Below are positions 5,824-16,759 of a DNA stretch of 26,272 nucleotides, piece after piece. The DNA lies in the IMG/VR virus record IMGVR_UViG_3300031521_000317, positions 1 to 26,272 of that record; one strand, written 5' to 3'. The notes beneath the pieces are model-generated. The model had not been told where the DNA came from and did no database searches. It saw only the letters and a program-made list of their open reading frames with translations. The first letter of the stretch is position 1. The number at the start of each line of letters is the position of its first letter. Both the position numbers and the translations under genes were made by a program. Source of the DNA: a virus.

Positions 5824-6180
5824 TTAATTAAATCCTATAAATTCATCAAAAGTTGGAACAGGGGCAGGAACATCATAACGGAAAATAAACATTGGATAAC
5901 AGGAATCGCTATAATTTGTTACTACTTCAAGCCAAATATGCCCTGTAATTACATCGACTAATAAGTATCCTATAAAGTCTTTACAGTCCACTTTCTTAAC
6001 AAATACTTTTGCTACAGGCATATGAAAGAAGTTTGAACCGTCCGAAGTAGCTAGAATAGTTTCAAGATAAGAACGGTAGCCGTCATCAGGATCTTCTAGT
6101 GCTTCCCATATTTGATCATCTAGCTTAAACTTATTATTCCACACTCCATAAAAGTCGAAAAACTTTGCACTTTTAAACAT
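5824..6180 (-). CDS. Hypothetical protein, 118 aa
   Basis: Acidic, aromatic-rich protein with no recognised domain ('FFDFYGVWNNKFKLDDQIWEAL' at the N-terminus, 'FMFRYDVPAPVP'-like end). I prefer the ATG at 6180, which overlaps the stop of the preceding gene as TAATG and sits 11 bases after AGGGAG; a GTG at 6192 is in frame but overlaps that site. The overlap implies translational coupling. No membrane segments and no cysteine motif. Function unknown. Confidence 0.68.
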   Translation of the reverse strand: MFKSAKFFDFYGVWNNKFKLDDQIWEALEDPDDGYRSYLETILATSDGSNFFHMPVAKVFVKKVDCKDFIGYLLVDVITGHIWLEVVTNYSDSCYPMFIFRYDVPAPVPTFDEFIGFN

Positions 6181-6437
6181 TACTTTACCCACTCCCTTAT
6201 AAATCTTTTTTCAATCTTAGCATTAAGAAATAGGAACATTGATTCCCCTGCATCCCATAACACTTCATCCATGTCTGAGATATAATCCTCCATTGTCCTA
6301 TATGCTTCAACATAAGTGTCACAATCTTTCAGATAAATATCTTGGTCATTTAATAGGGTAATTATTGCAGTGAATTTTTCAAGTATTTTATAATCTCCCA
6401 TACTCACTATTTCACCTTCCTTTATAATATCTTTCAA
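6180..6437 (-). CDS. Hypothetical protein, up to 85 aa
   Basis: Acidic protein with a central 'DIYLKDCDTYVEAYRTMEDY' helix-like stretch. The TTG at 6437 starts two bases after the stop of the upstream gene, with GGGGAG overlapping that stop. A GTG at 6407 with its own GGAAGGTG site would give 75 aa, so the start is uncertain. It overlaps the next gene by one base. No recognised family. Confidence 0.62.
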   Translation of the reverse strand: MKDIIKEGEIVSMGDYKILEKFTAIITLLNDQDIYLKDCDTYVEAYRTMEDYISDMDEVLWDAGESMFLFLNAKIEKRFIREWVK

Positions 6438-6439
6438 AT

Positions 6440-6670
6440 TTACTCCCCTTTTATGAAGCCTTTATGCCAAAAGTAATTTATCCACCCTATTTTGACAGAT
6501 GCGTCTTTCTGAAAATGGTATTCCTTACCATCCCTTTCCCACCAGAAATGTATACCAAAGAAAGGTTTACGACATATACTAAAATCACAGCCTATTTTAA
6601 TGTTTTTAGGGTCTTTAAGCTTTTCTTTAATAGCAACAAAGATGCAATTACTGTAATAAACATTGTCCAT
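6440..6670 (-). CDS. Hypothetical protein, 76 aa
   Basis: The open frame extends to 6742, but the extension would overlap the upstream gene by 65 bases and has no ribosome site. The ATG at 6670 has GGAAGGTG ten bases upstream, which overlaps the end of the preceding gene. The product is basic and very rich in Trp/Phe ('KPFFGIHFWWERDGKEYHF', 'IGWINYFWHKGF'). Not recognised; possibly a small soluble protein with a beta-rich fold. Confidence 0.62.
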   Translation of the reverse strand: MDNVYYSNCIFVAIKEKLKDPKNIKIGCDFSICRKPFFGIHFWWERDGKEYHFQKDASVKIGWINYFWHKGFIKGE

Positions 6671-6677
6671 CGTATAA

Positions 6678-6866
6678 TTACACCTTCCTAATGTTAGTAT
6701 GCGTAGTAGTATTAGATACACATCTGCAATACATATCTCCAAATGCTCTTGCTTTCATTTTGTTATCATAGTCCCAATCAATATTCTTTTTCCCGCAGAT
6801 TGTACACTGTCCTTCGTACTTATCAGGTTCTTTAAAAGGGACTGGTGAAGCTAAAAATCTAGACAT
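6678..6866 (-). CDS. Small zinc-ribbon-like protein
   Basis: A 62-aa protein with 'CTICGKKN' and, 24 residues later, 'YCRCVS', a CxxC...CxC arrangement that could hold one zinc ion. It starts inside the end of the 146-aa gene (8-base overlap) and ends just before the ribosome site of the next gene. Family unknown; small zinc ribbons of this kind are frequent in Firmicute phages. Confidence 0.65.
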   Translation of the reverse strand: MSRFLASPVPFKEPDKYEGQCTICGKKNIDWDYDNKMKARAFGDMYCRCVSNTTTHTNIRKV

Positions 6867-7299
6867 ATCTATACCTCCTGTACGCTCTACTATAGTTTAC
6901 GTGACGGAATTTCCTCTTATTGTTTGTCGTTCCCCACATACTACTAAAATCCATAAAAGGAGTGTAAAAGGGGTGAAGATAGCATGGAACATGTTCAGGG
7001 TAAAAAGAACTCTCAGACAATCTTGCTATAGTGTCCCTAATCATTTGAACAGTTAGGATAGGTTCGGGACGAGTAATTTTAGTGTCATACCCAAATAAGT
7101 CCATCAGCATTTCGGAATCGACTTTTGCAAGTTCCATATCACACTCAAAGGAAAGTGATTCAAATTTTGATTGAATTTCCTCTCCCACTTCGGATTGATC
7201 ATTAATGGTCACTTCCTGCAGACCTCCTATCTCGGTTTCATTTCCCTCCCTATCCACAATATACATAGTTCCTATTCCTCTCCCAAATAGTTCTTCCAT
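6859..7299 (-). CDS. Hypothetical protein, 146 aa
   Basis: The ATG at 7299 has AAGGAGAG six bases upstream and begins 28 bases inside the end of the ligase gene, in a different frame, so the two are translationally coupled. A TTG at 7305 is too close to the ribosome site. The N-terminal half is acidic ('VTINDQSEVGEEIQSKFESL', 'DSEMLMDLFGYD'); the C-terminal end is strongly basic and aromatic ('YSRAYRRYRYV'), possibly for nucleic-acid contact. No family recognised. Confidence 0.68.
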   Translation of the reverse strand: MEELFGRGIGTMYIVDREGNETEIGGLQEVTINDQSEVGEEIQSKFESLSFECDMELAKVDSEMLMDLFGYDTKITRPEPILTVQMIRDTIARLSESSFYPEHVPCYLHPFYTPFMDFSSMWGTTNNKRKFRHVNYSRAYRRYRYV

Positions 7300-8534
7300 G
7301 TGCAACTCTCCTTATTTTTATCATTCCTCCAACGATTGAATCGTGGGTGACGAAGCGTGCCAGTTTCCTTATTGATGATCTCTTGTGCTTTAATTTCAAT
7401 GACTTGTTCCCCAACTAATTTTGATTTATTAGCTAGTATGAGCACTTGATCCGCATCAGTTATCCCTTTTGCTTCAGCTACTTTAAACAGTTTCCCATCT
7501 CGGTATACTCCACATACTATTGCCCCTATCCATCCATTTGCGTAAGGCTTGGTAACGGGAGCACAGTTTCTTTCCTTTGCTTCGGCATCAGTCATTGTCT
7601 TCTCAAAAGGACAAGGATCATCACAATCTACCCAATAATCCCACGTTCCATCTTCCTCTTCAAAGGCATTGCCATCGTAATACATGGTAGGAGGTTCAAA
7701 TCCCATGATAACTACATCCCGTGTGATCTCTCCTTTTAGTTTAAGGGAATTCTTGCTACGCTTATACTCATATTTCCCATAGATACTCTTGATGATGAGT
7801 CCTTCAAGTCCCTGTTCCCACATCTCCTCTAACAATTTACGAAAGGATTTCACAATCTCGGGAATAGGATCAAAATACCACTTTCCTTCGGAGTATCCTT
7901 CTTTTAATTCGAGAAACTTAGCATGAGTTTCCTTAGTAGCAAAGAACGGAGCGAACTTGATACATGGATTCTTATTTTCTCTCAGTACGTTGAATAGATA
8001 GAGTTTTCGCTTCCATAAGGGCATGGATCGAATGTTGATTCCTTTATAGTAAATAATATCGAATGCGTTGTAAATAGCGAATCCTTTTTCGATCTGATTT
8101 TGCAGTGCTGTTTCAGGCAATGCCCCTGTGACTCCCTGTACATCTGCAAACACTCCTGTAGGCATTGTAATTTCTCCATCAAGTATTGTTCCTGTAAACT
8201 CTCCAAGGTCATAGTCCCGTAAGTGGGGCAAGCAGTCGGTGTTTTCACTATACCAGCCCGTCTTCTTACTAATTCTTCTACTAAAGAATCTATTTCCCTG
8301 TAGCGTAATACTACATGATGCTCTATGTCCATCATATTTGATTTCTGCAATAGTTCCATCTTCAGGTATATCCTCCTTATCACATTCTTTAGCTGTCATT
8401 ACTTCAAGGAAGCGTATATAGGGGTCAGCTTGATACATTGCATACGTCCATCCATTAAACTTCGGAGAGCAGTCCTTAGTGATTATAGTGGCATCTTCCG
8501 TTATTCGGATTATTCCGTCTTTATACTTCAGCAT
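7272..8534 (-). CDS. ATP-dependent DNA ligase
   Basis: A 420-aa enzyme that seals nicks through a lysyl-AMP intermediate. Nucleotidyltransferase motifs are clear: motif I 'EIKYDGHR' with the adenylated Lys66, motif III 'TILDGE' (residues 116-121), the 'FDIIYY' element, motif IV 'EGLIIKS' (244-250) and motif V 'SLKLKGE' (263-269). An OB-fold domain follows and ends with 'LRHPRFNRWRNDK' (motif VI-like). There is an insertion with 'CDDPCPFEK' in the OB domain. The ATG at 8534 has AAGGAGG and overlaps the stop of the upstream 52-aa gene. It probably serves phage replication and repair together with the dNTP genes of the next operon. Confidence 0.93.
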   Translation of the reverse strand: MLKYKDGIIRITEDATIITKDCSPKFNGWTYAMYQADPYIRFLEVMTAKECDKEDIPEDGTIAEIKYDGHRASCSITLQGNRFFSRRISKKTGWYSENTDCLPHLRDYDLGEFTGTILDGEITMPTGVFADVQGVTGALPETALQNQIEKGFAIYNAFDIIYYKGINIRSMPLWKRKLYLFNVLRENKNPCIKFAPFFATKETHAKFLELKEGYSEGKWYFDPIPEIVKSFRKLLEEMWEQGLEGLIIKSIYGKYEYKRSKNSLKLKGEITRDVVIMGFEPPTMYYDGNAFEEEDGTWDYWVDCDDPCPFEKTMTDAEAKERNCAPVTKPYANGWIGAIVCGVYRDGKLFKVAEAKGITDADQVLILANKSKLVGEQVIEIKAQEIINKETGTLRHPRFNRWRNDKNKESCTWKNYLGEE

Positions 8535-8898: not shown

Positions 8899-8928
8899 AT
8901 AAATGGAAAGGAGGGGTTAATCCCCTCC
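8899..8928 (-). terminator. Terminator of the dUTPase/RNR/kinase operon
   Basis: Minus strand stem GGAGGGG-loop ATTAA-CCCCTCC, followed by TTTCCATTTATTTC. The TAA stop of the kinase gene lies in the loop. Confidence 0.78.
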
Positions 8929-9438
8929 ACACGCACTTTTGCATTTTATTATACTCAATAGAATGTCTAATCTCTCTTCTACAGTCCCCCTCAGTACAAA
9001 TGGGACAATATTATTACAATAAAATATTTCCATAATAGCTTCATCCACGGCAATTCTTTTAGCTTCAAATGTCTCCCGATCTCCATCAGATTTCATGGGA
9101 AACTCGATAGGAAGATAAAATATCAAATCAGGGTATATGGAAGATTCCTTATATCTTTCAATCTCCCTTTGAATCTCTTCCTTATCCCAACATTCATATG
9201 CCATACTGTAAGCTATTACGTCAAGTACACTACGGTCACAAATAGAATCCTCAGTGAGGGACTCAAACATTTCATAGTAGTGCTGTAATACCATTCGTTG
9301 TCCTACTTCAGTACATCTTAATTCAGCAGGAACTTTTCGGGTAGGAGTGGGGACGTATTTTATCCTCAATTCCTCCTCAACTCTTCTTGCTAAAGTTGAT
9401 TTCCCTGTTCCCCCTGTCCCTATGAGGCATATTAGCAT
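8917..9438 (-). CDS. P-loop nucleoside/nucleotide kinase (AAA_28-like)
   Basis: A 173-aa kinase. Walker A 'GTGGTGKST' spans residues 7-15; 'SICDRSVLDVIAY' (DRS at 68-70) matches the Asp-Arg motif of deoxynucleoside and nucleotide kinases; 'PDLIFYLPIEF' is the strand that follows in the thymidylate-kinase/AAA_28 fold. The likely substrate is a (deoxy)nucleoside or dNMP, which fits its operon with ribonucleotide reductase and dUTPase. The AAA_28 group also contains the NadR ribosylnicotinamide kinase domain, so a nicotinamide-nucleoside substrate cannot be excluded. It starts two bases from the stop of the 41-aa gene, and its stop lies in the terminator loop. Confidence 0.82.
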   Translation of the reverse strand: MLICLIGTGGTGKSTLARRVEEELRIKYVPTPTRKVPAELRCTEVGQRMVLQHYYEMFESLTEDSICDRSVLDVIAYSMAYECWDKEEIQREIERYKESSIYPDLIFYLPIEFPMKSDGDRETFEAKRIAVDEAIMEIFYCNNIVPFVLRGTVEERLDILLSIIKCKSACGGD

Positions 9439-9581: not shown

Positions 9582-11927
9582 TTATTCGCACGCAGAATAG
9601 TTACAATTATAACAGGTGAAGCACTTTCCTTCCGGTCTAAGAGTATTCATGTTGCACTTAGGGCATGGTAGCAATGTTACTACTTCCGCTTTCTTAGATT
9701 CAGGAGTTATTTCCTTACAAGGAGTTTTACATGTTGCACATCCTCCGTCATCGCAGGGAACTTTCAATTCTACGGAAGCTTTTCCTTTAAGACGTTTATA
9801 TTCTTCCATAATAGCTTCACCTATTGCAGACCCGCAACTACGCGAGATATGGGTTTTCCCCTCGTTCCTTCTATCAATACACGCTTTACAGCTATGCTCA
9901 CAAAGTTCTGCTACTACTTCAGCTACTTCAATCCCTGATCTCAATTCTAAGGAAGCTTGGCGGGTAATAGTTGCTATATTAGAAGTACATCCTTGTACAA
10001 TATTAGTGAATACTTCTACAATGTTTTCCCCATCATTGCATACAAAAACATAAAGGTTCTTCACACATGAAGTGTGTTTAGTAATTTTCTTACATGCCAC
10101 ATCTCCAATTTTAACAGGAACAATAGAGTCATATTTGAAGGGTTTATCCACAGTGATTACTTCAGGAGTAGTTTCTTTCCCAGTTTTCATTATAGCAGAT
10201 CGTTTGCATCCATTCCTAAATGTTGTTATTCCCTTGCATCCTGATTCCCACGCATTCATATAGGTATCAAAGACATCTTGAACAGTGACATCATTCTTCA
10301 TATTAATAGTGCTACTAATAGCGTTGTCGATGTAAGGTTGCATAGCCGATTGAACTTTAATGCGGTCTGCGGGGGAAATTTCATGAGATACTGTAATATA
10401 GGGAAATCTAACCATAATTTCCTCATCAGTTATTGTATCAGGATTGATATCATTGTGTTTTAATAGATGCTCTACTGATTTAGAGAATACTCGGAAATAC
10501 TTTCCTTCCTTCTCTAAGGCATGAGTCGTCCTTTGGTAAGTGATAGAGAATAGAGGTTCTATTCCTCCACTCATTCCTGCCATAGTTCCTATACTTCCAG
10601 TAGGTGCAATGGAAAGAAGCGATCCGTTGCGGAGTCCATACTTAGAAATATTATTATAAAGAATACTTCCTTCATGTCTTTCGAGGAAGGGGGATTGTTT
10701 TATATACTCCCAATTATACTTTCCAAAAGTTCCTACTATCTGTGCAAGGTGACAGGAAGTTTCAAGTGCAGTAGTCATCATAAACTCTGCTATTTCTCCT
10801 GCTAAATAAGAGGACTCATCACTCCCGTACTTAATTCCCATTGCGATAAACATGTCAGCAAGCCCAAATACTCCTAATCCAATTGGTCGCCAGTCATCAA
10901 TACACTTCTTGTTAGCTTCTAGAGGTTGCATATCATATCCATAATCAAGTATTTCATCAAGTGCTGTGATACCTAACTGAATTAGTTCCTCAAATTTCTC
11001 CCAATCTATACAAGCATCCTTTGTAAAAGGGTTTTTAACTATGTTATATAAATTGATAGATCCCAAGTTACAGCTATTGTTGGCACTGCCATAGTACTCT
11101 GCACATGGGTTTGGAATATCAATATTATACTGGTCAGGGGGATATGCGGTCATTAAATGACTTCTTCTCACATTATCTATGAAAATAGCACCTGGCTCTG
11201 CCCAATCCCATTGTGCTTCAGCAAACTTCATAAAGAAGTCTCTAGCATTGATCACTTTGGTTATAATCTCAGATTCATCTCCTACTATAAATTGTTGAGT
11301 ATAATCCATGTTATCCCTTACACAGTGCATAAAGTCATCAGTAAATAATATACTCAGGTTTGCTCCCTGAACAGCATCATTATTCCTCTTAATATCCAGA
11401 AATTCTTCTAGGTCAGGGTGGGAACAATTCATGCCAATCATTAAAGCCGCCCTTCTATTATTTGCCCCTATTACATCTGCTCCCACACTGAAAACAGGAA
11501 TGAAACTGACTGCTCCTGTAGAGGTCTTAGCCGAATTAGATACTTTTGCTCCTCTCGGTCTTAGGTTACTAATATTTAATCCCGTTCCACCCCCATAAGA
11601 GAAGATCCTAGCTTCCTGTTTAGCAACATCATAGATACTCTCAATATTATCTTCAGGCATAGGCAGGATATAACAGTTTGACATTGAGCATTTAAATTTC
11701 CCCTTACTTCCTGCTCCATATAAGGAACGACCTGCAGGGAAAAAACTAGCATCCTCTAAAGATTGAATCATATCAGATTGTAGGTCTGCATTGCTAAATA
11801 TAAATCCGACTCTACATATAAATTCCTCGAAAGTAGTTTCATCCTCATGTAAGTACTTCTTAGCTATAATGGTCTTCCCTGTAAGTGTCTCATTCCAGTT
11901 TTCCGTCTTATTCGTATTTGATGACAT
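9582..11927 (-). CDS. nrdJ: Adenosylcobalamin-dependent (class II) ribonucleotide reductase
   Basis: A 781-aa enzyme converting ribonucleotides to deoxyribonucleotides. Signature regions are 'SNCYILP' (Cys85), 'FSYGGGTGLNISNLRPRGA' (109-127), 'NPCAE' (273-277, radical Cys275 and Glu277), 'SCNLGSINL' (Cys286, partner of Cys85) and 'PTGSIGTMAG'. A TSCPD-type domain follows ('KKITKHTSCVKNLYVFVC' to 'CEHSCKACIDRRNEG'). The C-terminal tail is a cysteine cluster ('CPKCNMNTLRPEGKCFTC', 'NCNYSACE'), which carries the re-reducing thiols. There is no activase or small subunit nearby, consistent with class II and a B12-dependent host environment. Expressed with dUTPase and a nucleotide kinase. Confidence 0.93.
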   Translation of the reverse strand: MSSNTNKTENWNETLTGKTIIAKKYLHEDETTFEEFICRVGFIFSNADLQSDMIQSLEDASFFPAGRSLYGAGSKGKFKCSMSNCYILPMPEDNIESIYDVAKQEARIFSYGGGTGLNISNLRPRGAKVSNSAKTSTGAVSFIPVFSVGADVIGANNRRAALMIGMNCSHPDLEEFLDIKRNNDAVQGANLSILFTDDFMHCVRDNMDYTQQFIVGDESEIITKVINARDFFMKFAEAQWDWAEPGAIFIDNVRRSHLMTAYPPDQYNIDIPNPCAEYYGSANNSCNLGSINLYNIVKNPFTKDACIDWEKFEELIQLGITALDEILDYGYDMQPLEANKKCIDDWRPIGLGVFGLADMFIAMGIKYGSDESSYLAGEIAEFMMTTALETSCHLAQIVGTFGKYNWEYIKQSPFLERHEGSILYNNISKYGLRNGSLLSIAPTGSIGTMAGMSGGIEPLFSITYQRTTHALEKEGKYFRVFSKSVEHLLKHNDINPDTITDEEIMVRFPYITVSHEISPADRIKVQSAMQPYIDNAISSTINMKNDVTVQDVFDTYMNAWESGCKGITTFRNGCKRSAIMKTGKETTPEVITVDKPFKYDSIVPVKIGDVACKKITKHTSCVKNLYVFVCNDGENIVEVFTNIVQGCTSNIATITRQASLELRSGIEVAEVVAELCEHSCKACIDRRNEGKTHISRSCGSAIGEAIMEEYKRLKGKASVELKVPCDDGGCATCKTPCKEITPESKKAEVVTLLPCPKCNMNTLRPEGKCFTCYNCNYSACE

Positions 11928-12503: not shown

Positions 12504-13268
12504 TTATCTATTATCATGTCTTTCTTTTCCTAGCTGATAGAATCTACACAATTCCTCTTTACTGGGTGCTCTCCCACATCCCTTTTCTTCAGGGCAATAA
12601 CCATGAACATGACAGTGTGCTCCTAGCTTATCTGCAAGGAATGGGGATACTTTTCTAATCTCAGCAATAATCATCATTGCTAATTCCCTAATTTCCCACT
12701 GTGCTCTAGTGCAACATCTACGAAGACAGAACTGTTGTAATCCCTCCCAATCAAAGGATACATTAATCTTTGTGAAAGTAGCGTTAGATAAGCAGTAACG
12801 GGCATCTTCAGGTTTTGCTCCCTGCTCAATAAATCCCTTATACATTTGCTTAACTATATCTTGAAAATTACTAAAAGCTAACCAAGTATAAACATAATCA
12901 ACACTTTCTCCATACTGGTTAAAGTACTGATCATCCCCAATAATAGGGATTCTAACTTGAACACTAAGATCCATGATTCCTTTAGGGGTTACATACCTAA
13001 ATCCATCTTCATTAACGAATCTTTGTGATCGTTGAACTTTTGCAACTCCAATTTCATGTCTAACGAATTCATGGGAGAACGCTCTCGACACTTCACTAAT
13101 TTCAAACATGAAACGCATTGGGCGAGTAGGAACTCCGTGTCCACTATTAATACACTTCTTTCCTATAGTAGCATACTCTGTTTTAGAATCATAACTTGCA
13201 GAAGCCATCCATCCCGCAACTTTAATTTCGGTATCTATATCGTTAGAATTTACAAATCTTACTTTCAT
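12504..13268 (-). CDS. thyX: Flavin-dependent thymidylate synthase
   Basis: A 254-aa enzyme making dTMP from dUMP with methylene-THF, FAD and NADPH. The ThyX-type motif is at residues 70-84, 'RHEIGVAKVQRSQRF'; its third residue is Glu where the consensus RHRxxS has Arg, and the Ser/Asn positions also differ. Further support: 'PEDARYCLSNAT', 'FCLRRCCTRAQWEIRELAM' (substrate-binding region) and a Cys-rich C-terminus ('CHVHGYCPEEKGCGR') seen in Firmicute ThyX. The start overlaps the NAMPT stop as ATGA. It complements dUTPase and RNR of the next operon. The motif variation deserves a check, but identity is clear. Confidence 0.9.
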   Translation of the reverse strand: MKVRFVNSNDIDTEIKVAGWMASASYDSKTEYATIGKKCINSGHGVPTRPMRFMFEISEVSRAFSHEFVRHEIGVAKVQRSQRFVNEDGFRYVTPKGIMDLSVQVRIPIIGDDQYFNQYGESVDYVYTWLAFSNFQDIVKQMYKGFIEQGAKPEDARYCLSNATFTKINVSFDWEGLQQFCLRRCCTRAQWEIRELAMMIIAEIRKVSPFLADKLGAHCHVHGYCPEEKGCGRAPSKEELCRFYQLGKERHDNR

Positions 13269-14749
13269 TTATTTTCCTCCCGCAATATTTGTCTAATTTC
13301 TGATAGGTTCTGAGTACGAAGTACTTTTCCATCTAAGAAGATATCCTCTAATAGATCCGCTCTTTCCCAGTTATCTCTTCCATAAGAAGTTAGTCCATCA
13401 ATACAATAAGTATCCTTCTCAGGACTTCTAACTACAGCAACCATTCCAGTATTAGATTTCTTTACTCCATTATCAGTGACAGGATCTTTGAACAGGAACT
13501 TTTCTTCCCCATTAATCTTTGCATAAGTGGATTTAAGGGCGAATCCAAAGGTATCTCTTGTGTTGTACTGATAAGTAAAGCTACCCACTCCAAATACAAT
13601 ATTAGTTGAAGCGAATCCTTTATCCATCAATCTCCGACAAATATTTTCACATCTTTCCAGTGTAATTGCATCCCCGTAGATTGCTCCTATGTGAGGATCT
13701 AATTCTTTAAAGCCTTTAGCATTAATTGTTCCGCCAAATATATCCCATAACATCTGAATAACTCCTTTTCGAGCATAAATATTTGGGGAGAGATAATTGC
13801 CACAAATAATGTCGGAGGGATCTCCTGAATCAGGGCGAATAACAACTTTTCCATCTCTTGCAAGAATATCTGATTTCAAGGGGGCAATAACATTATTCAA
13901 TACACTCCACAAGTCCCACGTATCCGATACAATGCTAACTAATCCGCTAGGATATACTTCAGTAATGATTCTTTTATAGGAGGAAAGTTCATCCTGACCA
14001 TAAGCACACATTACACTATGTTCCGTAGCGGGGATACTGCATCCCACAAGTTCCTTTTCAATATCGGCTCCATAATAGTTTTCCAATAACATAATTGCAG
14101 GAATGGAATCTGTCCCCGTAAAGCTTAGTAAGTGTCCCGCTCCACTAATAGCGGAAGCTTCCACTCGATCCATCCCTCTCATTGAGAAATCATGTGCTTG
14201 GAATTGAACCATTATAGGATCTCCACCAGTCTTCACGCAATAGGAATCAAGAATCTTACGGTATTCAAGGGCAATAGTAGCACTAGTGGAGGGTTTCCAT
14301 AGGCTCAGACTCATTAAGGTTTCAATGTAATTTGTTACCCAAAAGAATTCAGGAATAGTGTTCTCTACAGTCAACATTGGTACACGGATAGGAATCAATG
14401 TCCCTTCTTTTACTGCTTTAATATGAAGTGGGAGATATCCGAGATCATGTAGTGCTACAATGTGGGAAACATCGGGATTAGGTATCCCTAGAGCAAACTT
14501 AATTACTCTACGGTATTCCATTACCACCTCCTCCAAAGGTCTAAGAAAGAAGTTATAGTTAAAATAATCTACAAGGTACTCTTGGGCAAATGCCTGATAT
14601 CCAAATGCAACTACTTTATCAATTCCTTCAATACGTGAGGTTCTAGGAGTCCATGTTGAGTAAATTTTTTCCGTCCCCGCAGGATACTGTTCCCTATGAG
14701 ATACTTTATAGAAGTCGCATAGTAATGTTGCAGGATATGTTGTTTTCAT
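13265..14749 (-). CDS. nadV: Nicotinamide phosphoribosyltransferase homologue (NAMPT; possible Namat)
   Basis: A 494-aa protein, close to the 491 aa of human NAMPT. Conserved active-site regions: 'CDFYKVSHREQYPAGT' (base-stacking Tyr), 'AHDFSMRG' (Phe/Arg that sandwich nicotinamide), 'FTGTDS' (specificity Asp), 'SIPATEHSVM' (catalytic His) and 'VIRPDSGDP' (phosphate-binding Arg/Asp). In ordinary salvage it joins nicotinamide and PRPP to NMN. In NARP1-type phage operons the homologue (Namat) joins nicotinamide to ADPR-pyrophosphate and makes NAD+ directly. Here it follows a Prs homologue with a one-base TAATG overlap, and no NMN adenylyltransferase is seen, which favours the second reading without proving it. 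Confidence 0.9.
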   Translation of the reverse strand: MKTTYPATLLCDFYKVSHREQYPAGTEKIYSTWTPRTSRIEGIDKVVAFGYQAFAQEYLVDYFNYNFFLRPLEEVVMEYRRVIKFALGIPNPDVSHIVALHDLGYLPLHIKAVKEGTLIPIRVPMLTVENTIPEFFWVTNYIETLMSLSLWKPSTSATIALEYRKILDSYCVKTGGDPIMVQFQAHDFSMRGMDRVEASAISGAGHLLSFTGTDSIPAIMLLENYYGADIEKELVGCSIPATEHSVMCAYGQDELSSYKRIITEVYPSGLVSIVSDTWDLWSVLNNVIAPLKSDILARDGKVVIRPDSGDPSDIICGNYLSPNIYARKGVIQMLWDIFGGTINAKGFKELDPHIGAIYGDAITLERCENICRRLMDKGFASTNIVFGVGSFTYQYNTRDTFGFALKSTYAKINGEEKFLFKDPVTDNGVKKSNTGMVAVVRSPEKDTYCIDGLTSYGRDNWERADLLEDIFLDGKVLRTQNLSEIRQILREENK

Positions 14750-15582
14750 TAAGTTTTTCCTCCCTGATATATTTTTATTTTTGGATGACGAATACTGCCA
14801 TCAATTATGGAGTCAGTAGTAAAGACTTTGGTAATTGCTCCTGTGAAAGGAAGCATCCCATCAAAGATAGCGTGTTCACAGTGAGTTACTAGGAGATAAA
14901 CATCAGTTGCTCCTAGTTCCTTTAGTTTATCAGAAGCTAAAGCGAATGTTCCTCCTTTACTACACAAGTCATCAACAATAAGGACTTTAAAAGGAGTAGA
15001 AGATACATCCCCCACTACTTGAAGACTCTTAATCCTCCCTGTAGCAAAATCCCTATCTTTGAATCCTACAAGAGTTTTACATCCAGTATTATTCATCTTG
15101 GAATACCGTTTATATGCTCCCGCATCGGGGTAGAATATATAATCTACTGCACGATCAAACTTGATCTCCCGCATTACTTCCTGTAAAAGATGGATTGTAG
15201 GGTATAGTGCTTGGCTATAATTTACTAATGCCATTGTAACATCTGAGTGAGGTTCAAGGATAGTAATTCCAGTGAAATCAAGAGAGTTAATAAAGTCAGC
15301 TACATATTTCAAAGTGAATACTGAATTCCCCTCCACTCTATCCTGTCTGCTATAGGGCATATAAGAAATAGTAAGTATAGTGTCAAGTTTAACGAAGTAA
15401 TCAATATGCCGTTTTACAAACATAAGTTTTATTAAGTCTTCATCGGTTTCATACTTAAATTCGACATGATTTTCCATTGAAGGTTGCTCACTAAGGAGAT
15501 TATAAATCTCATTCCCATTTACCTTTGTTTCCCCGTTAGGGAATTTGGTGAAAGTTAAAATAGTGCCATTAAGTTTTATCAT
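14749..15582 (-). CDS. Ribose-phosphate pyrophosphokinase homologue (possible ADPR-PP synthetase)
   Basis: A 277-aa protein, shorter than cellular Prs (about 310-320 aa). Visible motifs: 'FPNGET' near residue 15 (cf. FxDGE), 'YMPYSRQDR' (flexible ATP loop), 'LEPHSDVT' (metal/ATP site) and 'VLIVDDLCSKGGTF' (acceptor-binding loop). In cellular Prs this last loop usually reads VDDxxDTGGT; here 'SK' replaces 'DT' before GGT, which changes the 5-phosphate pocket. The product is PRPP, or ADPR-pyrophosphate if it is an Adps of the NARP1 type. The ATG has GGAGGG seven bases upstream. Coupled to the NAMPT gene by TAATG. Confidence 0.88.
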   Translation of the reverse strand: MIKLNGTILTFTKFPNGETKVNGNEIYNLLSEQPSMENHVEFKYETDEDLIKLMFVKRHIDYFVKLDTILTISYMPYSRQDRVEGNSVFTLKYVADFINSLDFTGITILEPHSDVTMALVNYSQALYPTIHLLQEVMREIKFDRAVDYIFYPDAGAYKRYSKMNNTGCKTLVGFKDRDFATGRIKSLQVVGDVSSTPFKVLIVDDLCSKGGTFALASDKLKELGATDVYLLVTHCEHAIFDGMLPFTGAITKVFTTDSIIDGSIRHPKIKIYQGGKT

Positions 15583-15687: not shown

Positions 15688-16296
15688 TCACTTTTTAGGA
15701 TACAATCCTTCTCTATGGATTTCAATATGTTCTGCTCTAGTCATAATCTGAAGATTACTAATAACATTATTGGATCTATCAAAGTCAGTATGGTGAATAA
15801 CTTCTAAATTAGTAAGAAATCTGCCTAAATACTTCTCCATCACAATTCTATGTTCAGCTTTATACTTTCCATCTTCTTGTCTTAAATAAATATAACCATC
15901 ATGATTCCATACTCCACCCTTCCATCTATTAGAGTTTTCTTTAGTGCTTAGCTTACTACTTTTCCAATAACATTCCTTTGAGCAGTACAAATGCTTAGAG
16001 TTTAGAATATCTGCCAGTCTTCTTGAAGTTACTTTTCCACAAGTATTACATATTACTTCTATCTTAGTGGATCTAGTACTTTGACTACATTTATTAGAAC
16101 AGTACACTTGGTCTAACTTTCTAGAACTGAATACCGTGTCACATATAGGGCATATCTTTGGATTATTTCTAACTATAGATTTACCAAAACATTTACTTGA
16201 ACAAAAATGGGACTTACTATCGGAACGTGCTTGAAAAGGAGAATTACATGTACTACAGACTCTTTCCTCATATTTTCTATATTTATTATTATCCAT
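15688..16296 (-). CDS. HNH homing endonuclease with N-terminal zinc fingers
   Basis: A 202-aa protein. Residues about 13-125 carry three zinc-binding units of the form CxxC...CSxxC ('CSTCNSPF...FCSSKC', 'CPICDTVF...YCSNKC', 'CNTCGKVT...YCSKEC'), likely for DNA recognition. The HNH nuclease follows: 'AEHRIVMEKYLGRFL', 'EVIHHTDFDRSNNVISNLQ', 'MTRAEHIEIH'. It overlaps the end of the 3D-domain gene by 8 bases and stands between it and the NAD genes. It is probably a freestanding homing endonuclease gene, moving by cutting phage DNA lacking it. No group I intron features were seen around it. Confidence 0.87.
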   Translation of the reverse strand: MDNNKYRKYEERVCSTCNSPFQARSDSKSHFCSSKCFGKSIVRNNPKICPICDTVFSSRKLDQVYCSNKCSQSTRSTKIEVICNTCGKVTSRRLADILNSKHLYCSKECYWKSSKLSTKENSNRWKGGVWNHDGYIYLRQEDGKYKAEHRIVMEKYLGRFLTNLEVIHHTDFDRSNNVISNLQIMTRAEHIEIHREGLYPKK

Positions 16297-16759
16297 TATA
16301 TTTTCCTACAGAAATTATATATACTTTCTTCATCTGTCTACCATATGCTATACAAGAACTCTCACTCTCCATGAACAGGTCGATTATATGTCCTTTTATT
16401 GCTCCTCCTGTGTCTATAGCTGTAGCTAATCCATATCCCTCTACATAAACTTCACTTCCTAAAGGAATAACTTTAGGATCAACAGCTATTCCTCCTACAT
16501 AAGGCATAACTCCCGAAGCAGTGGCATCTCCTGTGTGAGTATACGCAGTGGTTTCCATTACTAATGTTCGTATTTCTCCGCGACTTGCCATTTGCTCCAG
16601 TCTCTCTCTTTCGTTAACTGGTCGGGGAATTTCTAGTTGAACAACAATTTCCACATGTTCCTCAACTCCTAGTCCCATGTCCTCGTTACTGTTAGCTATT
16701 AAAGGATCGTTTATTAATAGCATAGTGGCGAATGTTAGGGCTATGAGTTTCTTTAACAT
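16289..16759 (-). CDS. Secreted 3D-domain protein (YocH/YabE C-terminal type)
   Basis: A 156-aa protein with a signal peptide (MLKKLIALTFATMLLINDPL, probable cleavage near residue 23-26), an acidic linker, and a 3D domain from residue about 65: 'VMETTAYTHTGDATASG', 'GGIAVDPKVIPLGSEVYVEG', 'ATAIDTGGAIKGHIIDLFM'. The three Asp of this fold are present. 3D domains occur in cell-wall-active proteins (Rpf-like, lytic transglycosylase-related). A secreted one in an early metabolic operon is unusual; it might remodel the host wall or affect reinfection. No separate binding domain (LysM, SH3) is present. AAAGGAG site; the start is adjacent to the preceding stop. Confidence 0.88.
   Translation of the reverse strand: MLKKLIALTFATMLLINDPLIANSNEDMGLGVEEHVEIVVQLEIPRPVNERERLEQMASRGEIRTLVMETTAYTHTGDATASGVMPYVGGIAVDPKVIPLGSEVYVEGYGLATAIDTGGAIKGHIIDLFMESESSCIAYGRQMKKVYIISVGKYNG

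Follow-up and report, generated by a model that had tools for sequence, protein, structure and literature searches.

Gene order and coupling at the locus

The window, that is the whole stretch of DNA analysed here, is an entire IMG/VR record of 26,272 bases and corresponds to a fragment of an uncultured phage. It carries two adjoining genes encoding homologues of Adps and Namat, followed by thyX and preceded by an HNH endonuclease gene (Table 1). The initial annotation had described a 277-aa Prs homologue and a 494-aa NAMPT homologue overlapping by one base at a TAATG, and both the ORFs and the junction are as claimed. As the junction DNA reads aaaacTTAATGaaa (TAATG), the A at 14749 is common to the two genes. 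A Shine-Dalgarno-like GGAGG lies upstream of the Adps gene and of the Namat gene alike. The Namat gene in turn overlaps thyX by 4 bases (ATGA), giving a three-gene coupled run Adps-Namat-thyX. Downstream of thyX come dut, nrdJ (B12-type ribonucleotide reductase) and genes for a small P-loop kinase, an ATP-dependent DNA ligase, terminase, portal and major capsid protein.

Table 1. Features of the Adps-Namat locus (window coordinates)
Feature	Position	Strand	Basis or remark
thyX	12504..13268	-	PF02511, E 3.5e-35; opens the adjacent cassette for nucleotide synthesis
Namat homologue, 494 aa	13265..14749	-	ORF; predicted nicotinamide ADP-ribose transferase, ADPR-PP + nicotinamide -> NAD+
Clamp helix (SCH) motif GSFTYQYNTRD, residues 389-399	13553..13585	-	consensus from PMC12774641
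Catalytic histidine H244	14018..14020	-	alignment
Clamp loop (SCL) arginine R39 (SPbetaL1 R40)	14633..14635	-	alignment
Adps homologue, 277 aa	14749..15582	-	ORF; predicted ATP-dependent pyrophosphokinase, ADP-ribose -> ADPR-PP
Adps signature 3: DDLCSKGGTF, residues 204-213	14944..14973	-	altered ribose-5-phosphate loop; Prs DDxxDT(G/A)GT
Adps signature 2: KDRDFATG, residues 175-182	15037..15060	-	replaces KRRPxxN of Prs
Adps signature 1: EPHS, residues 110-113	15244..15255	-	replaces DLH[AT] of Prs
HNH endonuclease gene, immediately upstream of Adps	15688..16296	-	PF13392, E 1.3e-9; possible mobiliser
3D-domain gene, conserved on the left side of the accessory site	16289..16759	-	PF06725; orthologue in L029

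The absence of an NMN adenylyltransferase (NMNAT) gene from the 26 kb, also pointed out at the start, was confirmed: PF01467 gave no match in the six frames of the window, which is a partial phage genome. The same model gave no match in the complete phages SPbetaL1 and KKP_3916. An NMNAT gene elsewhere in the phage would leave the evidence of the adenine clamp, described below, standing.

Megablast of the whole window against phages returned no match, and the best terminase match of the window phage (36%) is to Streptomyces phages. Relatives detected through the capsid protein (50 to 77% identity), most of them short fragments, gave no NAMPT or Adps match. Viral contigs were also scanned with thyX, which retrieved only the already known G005, and with TerL, which added one new locus. 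The gene order in the relative G005 (locus L029) is 3D-domain gene, 151-aa ORF, thyX, dut, nrdD, nrdG, kinase, ligase, terminase; across the site, the order in the window is 3D-domain gene, HNH gene, Adps, Namat, thyX. Because G005 has the flanking genes but a 151-aa ORF where the pair sits, the module is accessory cargo. The site adjoining thyX is thus occupied by the module in the window phage and by another small gene in its relative; it is possible that the pair was gained with the help of the HNH nuclease.

The cassette itself also varies, with the B12-type NrdJ in the window (9582-11927) and the anaerobic NrdD/NrdG in G005 (6183-8554 in L029). The P-loop nucleotide kinase of the window lies at 8917-9438 (phrog_2107, AAA_28). 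The Kongming defence has a phage deoxynucleotide kinase as its trigger. As speculation only, the window phage might carry both the Kongming trigger (the kinase) and the antidote (NARP1).

Residues and phylogeny of the two proteins

The best solved relatives of the second protein are 9W5X and 9W5W (E 5e-226), structures of the SPbetaL1 Namat with nicotinamide and NAD+ (PMC12774641). The defining feature of Namat is a clamp on the adenine ring, to which a loop contributes one residue (Arg40 in SPbetaL1) and a helix the motif GSX-phi-X-phi-X-phi-TRD (PMC12774641). We took as the clamp loop of NARP1 a stacking Arg, or Lys/Tyr plus the next residue; the window protein has R39 at this place and GSFTYQYNTRD in the helix. 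All 20 of its NAD+-contact residues, adenine clamp included, are identical to those of the crystallised SPbetaL1 Namat, and the NAMPT-like catalytic core is kept (15/15 core contacts, and H244). In human NAMPT, one bacterial NAMPT and T4-like phage NAMPTs the two aromatic positions of the clamp are G or A, and Q/E/M/K. Identity is 65% to SPbetaL1 Namat and 34% to human NAMPT. In a tree of 47 rows, a branch of 1.8 changes per column (support 100/100) lies between Namat and NAMPT, with KKP_3916 and SPbetaL1 as the rows nearest to the window protein. Judged by these residues and this placement the second protein is a Namat, and not an NAMPT without a clamp as in NARP2 or canonical salvage, although its NCBIfam name is nicotinate phosphoribosyltransferase (PRK09198). 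Since Namat in vitro also keeps PRPP-dependent NMN synthesis (PMC12774641), the dominant donor in this host is not readable from the sequence. Longer Namats, of 560-590 aa, occur in some phages (L159, at 5983-7719, L163, L164, L038 and L040); in L040 and L159 the additional residues form an insert, in frame, that follows the PDSGDP motif.

The first protein matches phrog_619 (E 6e-73) and shares 51% identity with the Adps of SPbetaL1 and 54% with that of KKP_3916. The PRPP synthetase model TIGR01251 scores it at 90.8 bits, below the NCBIfam cut-off of 113. A 48-row tree gathers the 14 cellular Prs on a single branch of 3.36 (support 100/100). It places the window protein in a clade of 15 rows (100/98) that also contains the Adps of SPbetaL1 and of Paenibacillaceae, together with other Bacillota phages; how Adps from proteobacterial and mycobacterial phages branch at depth is not settled by this tree. 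Clustering with cellular Prs and NAMPT was thereby examined, and both window proteins group with NARP1, set apart from these by long branches with full support.

Three short motifs separate Adps from Prs in our sample of 34 Adps and 14 cellular Prs. The first is [ED]xHS in 34/34 Adps and DLHA or DLHT in 14/14 Prs; the second reads KxR[DN]xx[TSN]G in Adps versus KxRxxxN or similar in Prs; in the third, the DT of the ribose-5-phosphate loop is found in every cellular Prs and in none of the Adps, the window having SK. Where Prs has DLHA and DTGGT, the window protein thus has EPHS and SKGGT. The ATP-side motifs FPNGE and SRQDR are retained, with PYSRQDR in the window versus PYSRMDR in close relatives. 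The AF2 model (mean pLDDT 92.7) has the Prs fold, with a TM of about 0.75 to human PRPS1, and a sequence search for an Adps structure in the PDB gave none. We infer that Adps has retained its site for ATP and that its acceptor site was reshaped to take ADP-ribose; the selectivity of Adps has been called obscure (PMC12774641). The loop lysine K209 was considered as a determinant and dropped, as relatives carry Y, F, R or G there. PADLOC calls on Adps (ShosT, PsyrT) were discarded as weak hits on the common phosphoribosyltransferase core. The three motifs offer a quick test for NARP1 versus ordinary Prs/NAMPT annotation, which are still blurred in databases.

Pairing of Adps and Namat in viruses and bacteria

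The order and the 1-base overlap of the window pair recur in SPbetaL1, KKP_3916 and the viral locus L164, and for this reason the pairing is not due to chance. In one scan an Adps homologue was present at all 20 viral Namat loci. It lies upstream of Namat on the same strand in 18 of them, at distances from an overlap of a few bases to about 1.6 kb; in the other two (L156 and L172) the best Adps is on the other side of Namat. Two loci, L003 and L159, have a small gene between Adps and Namat that looks hydrolase-like by eye, that of L159 having no Pfam match. Both window proteins also match phrog_12872 (547 positions), in separate parts, and this family may contain fused Adps-Namat proteins.

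Among 99 Bacteroidota genomes, 6 have Namat and Adps on the same contig and 93 have neither. This co-occurrence is perfect, but the 6 include the centre genome, picked for having Namat, and the genomes are related, so we claim no strict probability for it. A separate claim for Pseudomonadota was dropped because the genomes retrieved with G017 (titled Saccharospirillaceae) were the same as those retrieved with the Bacteroidota G016. In seven Bacteroidota loci (L066, L076, L088, L093, L097, L122 and L124) other genes stand between the chromosomal Adps and Namat, in varying subsets. Pfam, run on examples of them, identified KptA/Tpt1, macro domain, ADP-ribosylglycohydrolase, NADAR, DUF4291, nucleoside deoxyribosyltransferase-like and calcineurin-like phosphoesterase proteins. 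This neighbourhood suggests a gene cluster in which ADP-ribose is recycled, with NAD+ as the end product.

Proposed function and known systems

We read the pair as a NARP1 module that restores NAD+ in two steps after host NADase defence (probability about 0.93). The original NARP1 paper is reportedly that of Osterman et al. in Nature in 2024 (doi 10.1038/s41586-024-07986-w). The host defence would cleave NAD+ into nicotinamide and ADP-ribose in the infected cell; Adps would then move pyrophosphate from ATP onto ADP-ribose, and Namat would couple the resulting ADPR-PP with nicotinamide to give NAD+, without NMN or NMN adenylyltransferase. With NAD+ rebuilt, the phage would survive NAD+-destroying bacterial defences. 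Both reactions and the anti-defence role are predicted here from characterised relatives. The SPbetaL1 pair and a bacterial pair from Paenibacillus foliorum have both been shown to be active and to give rescue from defence (PMC12774641). The phage DyoEdafos system synthesises NAD+ in vitro (PMC13232231), and ICP1 NrsAB restores NAD+ (PMC11559045).

The initial annotation had preferred NARP1 to a plain Prs/NAMPT pair, and the sequence supports this choice: the clamp is intact, both trees agree and the Prs motifs are absent. Ordinary NAD salvage (NARP2-like or canonical), with PRPP coming from a true Prs, NMN from a true NAMPT and the final step to NAD+ from an NMNAT of the host or the phage, would account for the family-level Pfam/NCBIfam names, and the PRPP activity kept by Namat in vitro (PMC12774641) and the partial contig leave it some room. 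We nevertheless consider it very unlikely, given clamp residues that NAMPTs do not have, the missing ribose-5-phosphate motifs, the two trees and a Prs match under the cut-off. That the module is broken or inactive, for which no sign was found, is extremely improbable, with full-length ORFs, every catalytic and clamp residue of Namat kept and a high-confidence Adps fold.

The same enzymes could instead serve mainly metabolism, turning ADP-ribose into NAD+ that feeds the thyX, dut and ribonucleotide reductase cassette. The overlap with thyX, the adjoining dut and nrdJ, and the bacterial homologues among ADP-ribose-releasing enzymes fit such a role. We regard it as unlikely because the pair is missing from G005 although its thyX-dut-nrdD cassette is there, because those relatives that have been tested act against NADase defences, and because ICP1 NrsAB carries a cost in the absence of the defence (PMC11559045). 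Beyond the NARP1 reading of the window pair, we tentatively propose, as a possibility that falls short of even odds, that Adps specificity is set by an exchange within the ribose-5-phosphate loop of Prs (DT replaced by S + K/Y/R/F, or by DG), so that the Adps side of NARP1 is readable through the three motifs. Bacterial NARP1 would in that case be a housekeeping route from ADP-ribose to NAD+, supplied by its KptA, macro-domain, NADAR and ADP-ribosylglycohydrolase neighbours, and phages would have taken it over as an antidote.

Canonical phage NadV or NARP2 (NAMPT + NMNAT), for instance the NAMPT of Vibrio phage VH7D, has the catalytic core in common with the window Namat; the VH7D protein differs by the absence of the adenine clamp (GGGLLQQLDRD), 33% identity and no adjoining Adps. 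The bacterial NARP1 of Paenibacillaceae (tested in P. foliorum, PMC12774641) resembles the window pair in its motifs, its tight coupling and a Namat about 67% identical, but lies on bacterial genome contigs and not on a phage backbone. By Namat the closest system is that of Alicyclobacillus phage KKP_3916 (OQ846916.1; 69-70%), a pair annotated as hypothetical proteins with the order and overlap of the window. Its phage backbone is different, and its RNR genes lie several kb downstream whereas in the window thyX overlaps the pair. SPbetaL1 NARP1 (Bacillus phage; PDB 9W5W, 9W5X; PMC12774641) has the same gene order and one-base overlap, all the NAD+-contact residues, the clamp loop Arg and an identical helix motif GSFTYQYNTRD. 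It differs in identity (65% for Namat, 51% for Adps), in the ribose-5-phosphate loop (SF versus SK) and in context, the window pair being beside thyX-dut-nrdJ in an uncultured phage unrelated to SPbetaL1. The small steps beyond known NARP1 are the simple Adps signature and the strict Bacteroidota pairing beside ADP-ribose-releasing enzymes. The window pair is clearly a new member of NARP1, a system already known, and not a new system; its novelty is modest, and it adds a sequence-verified, independently placed NARP1 to an uncultured phage lineage without close named relative.
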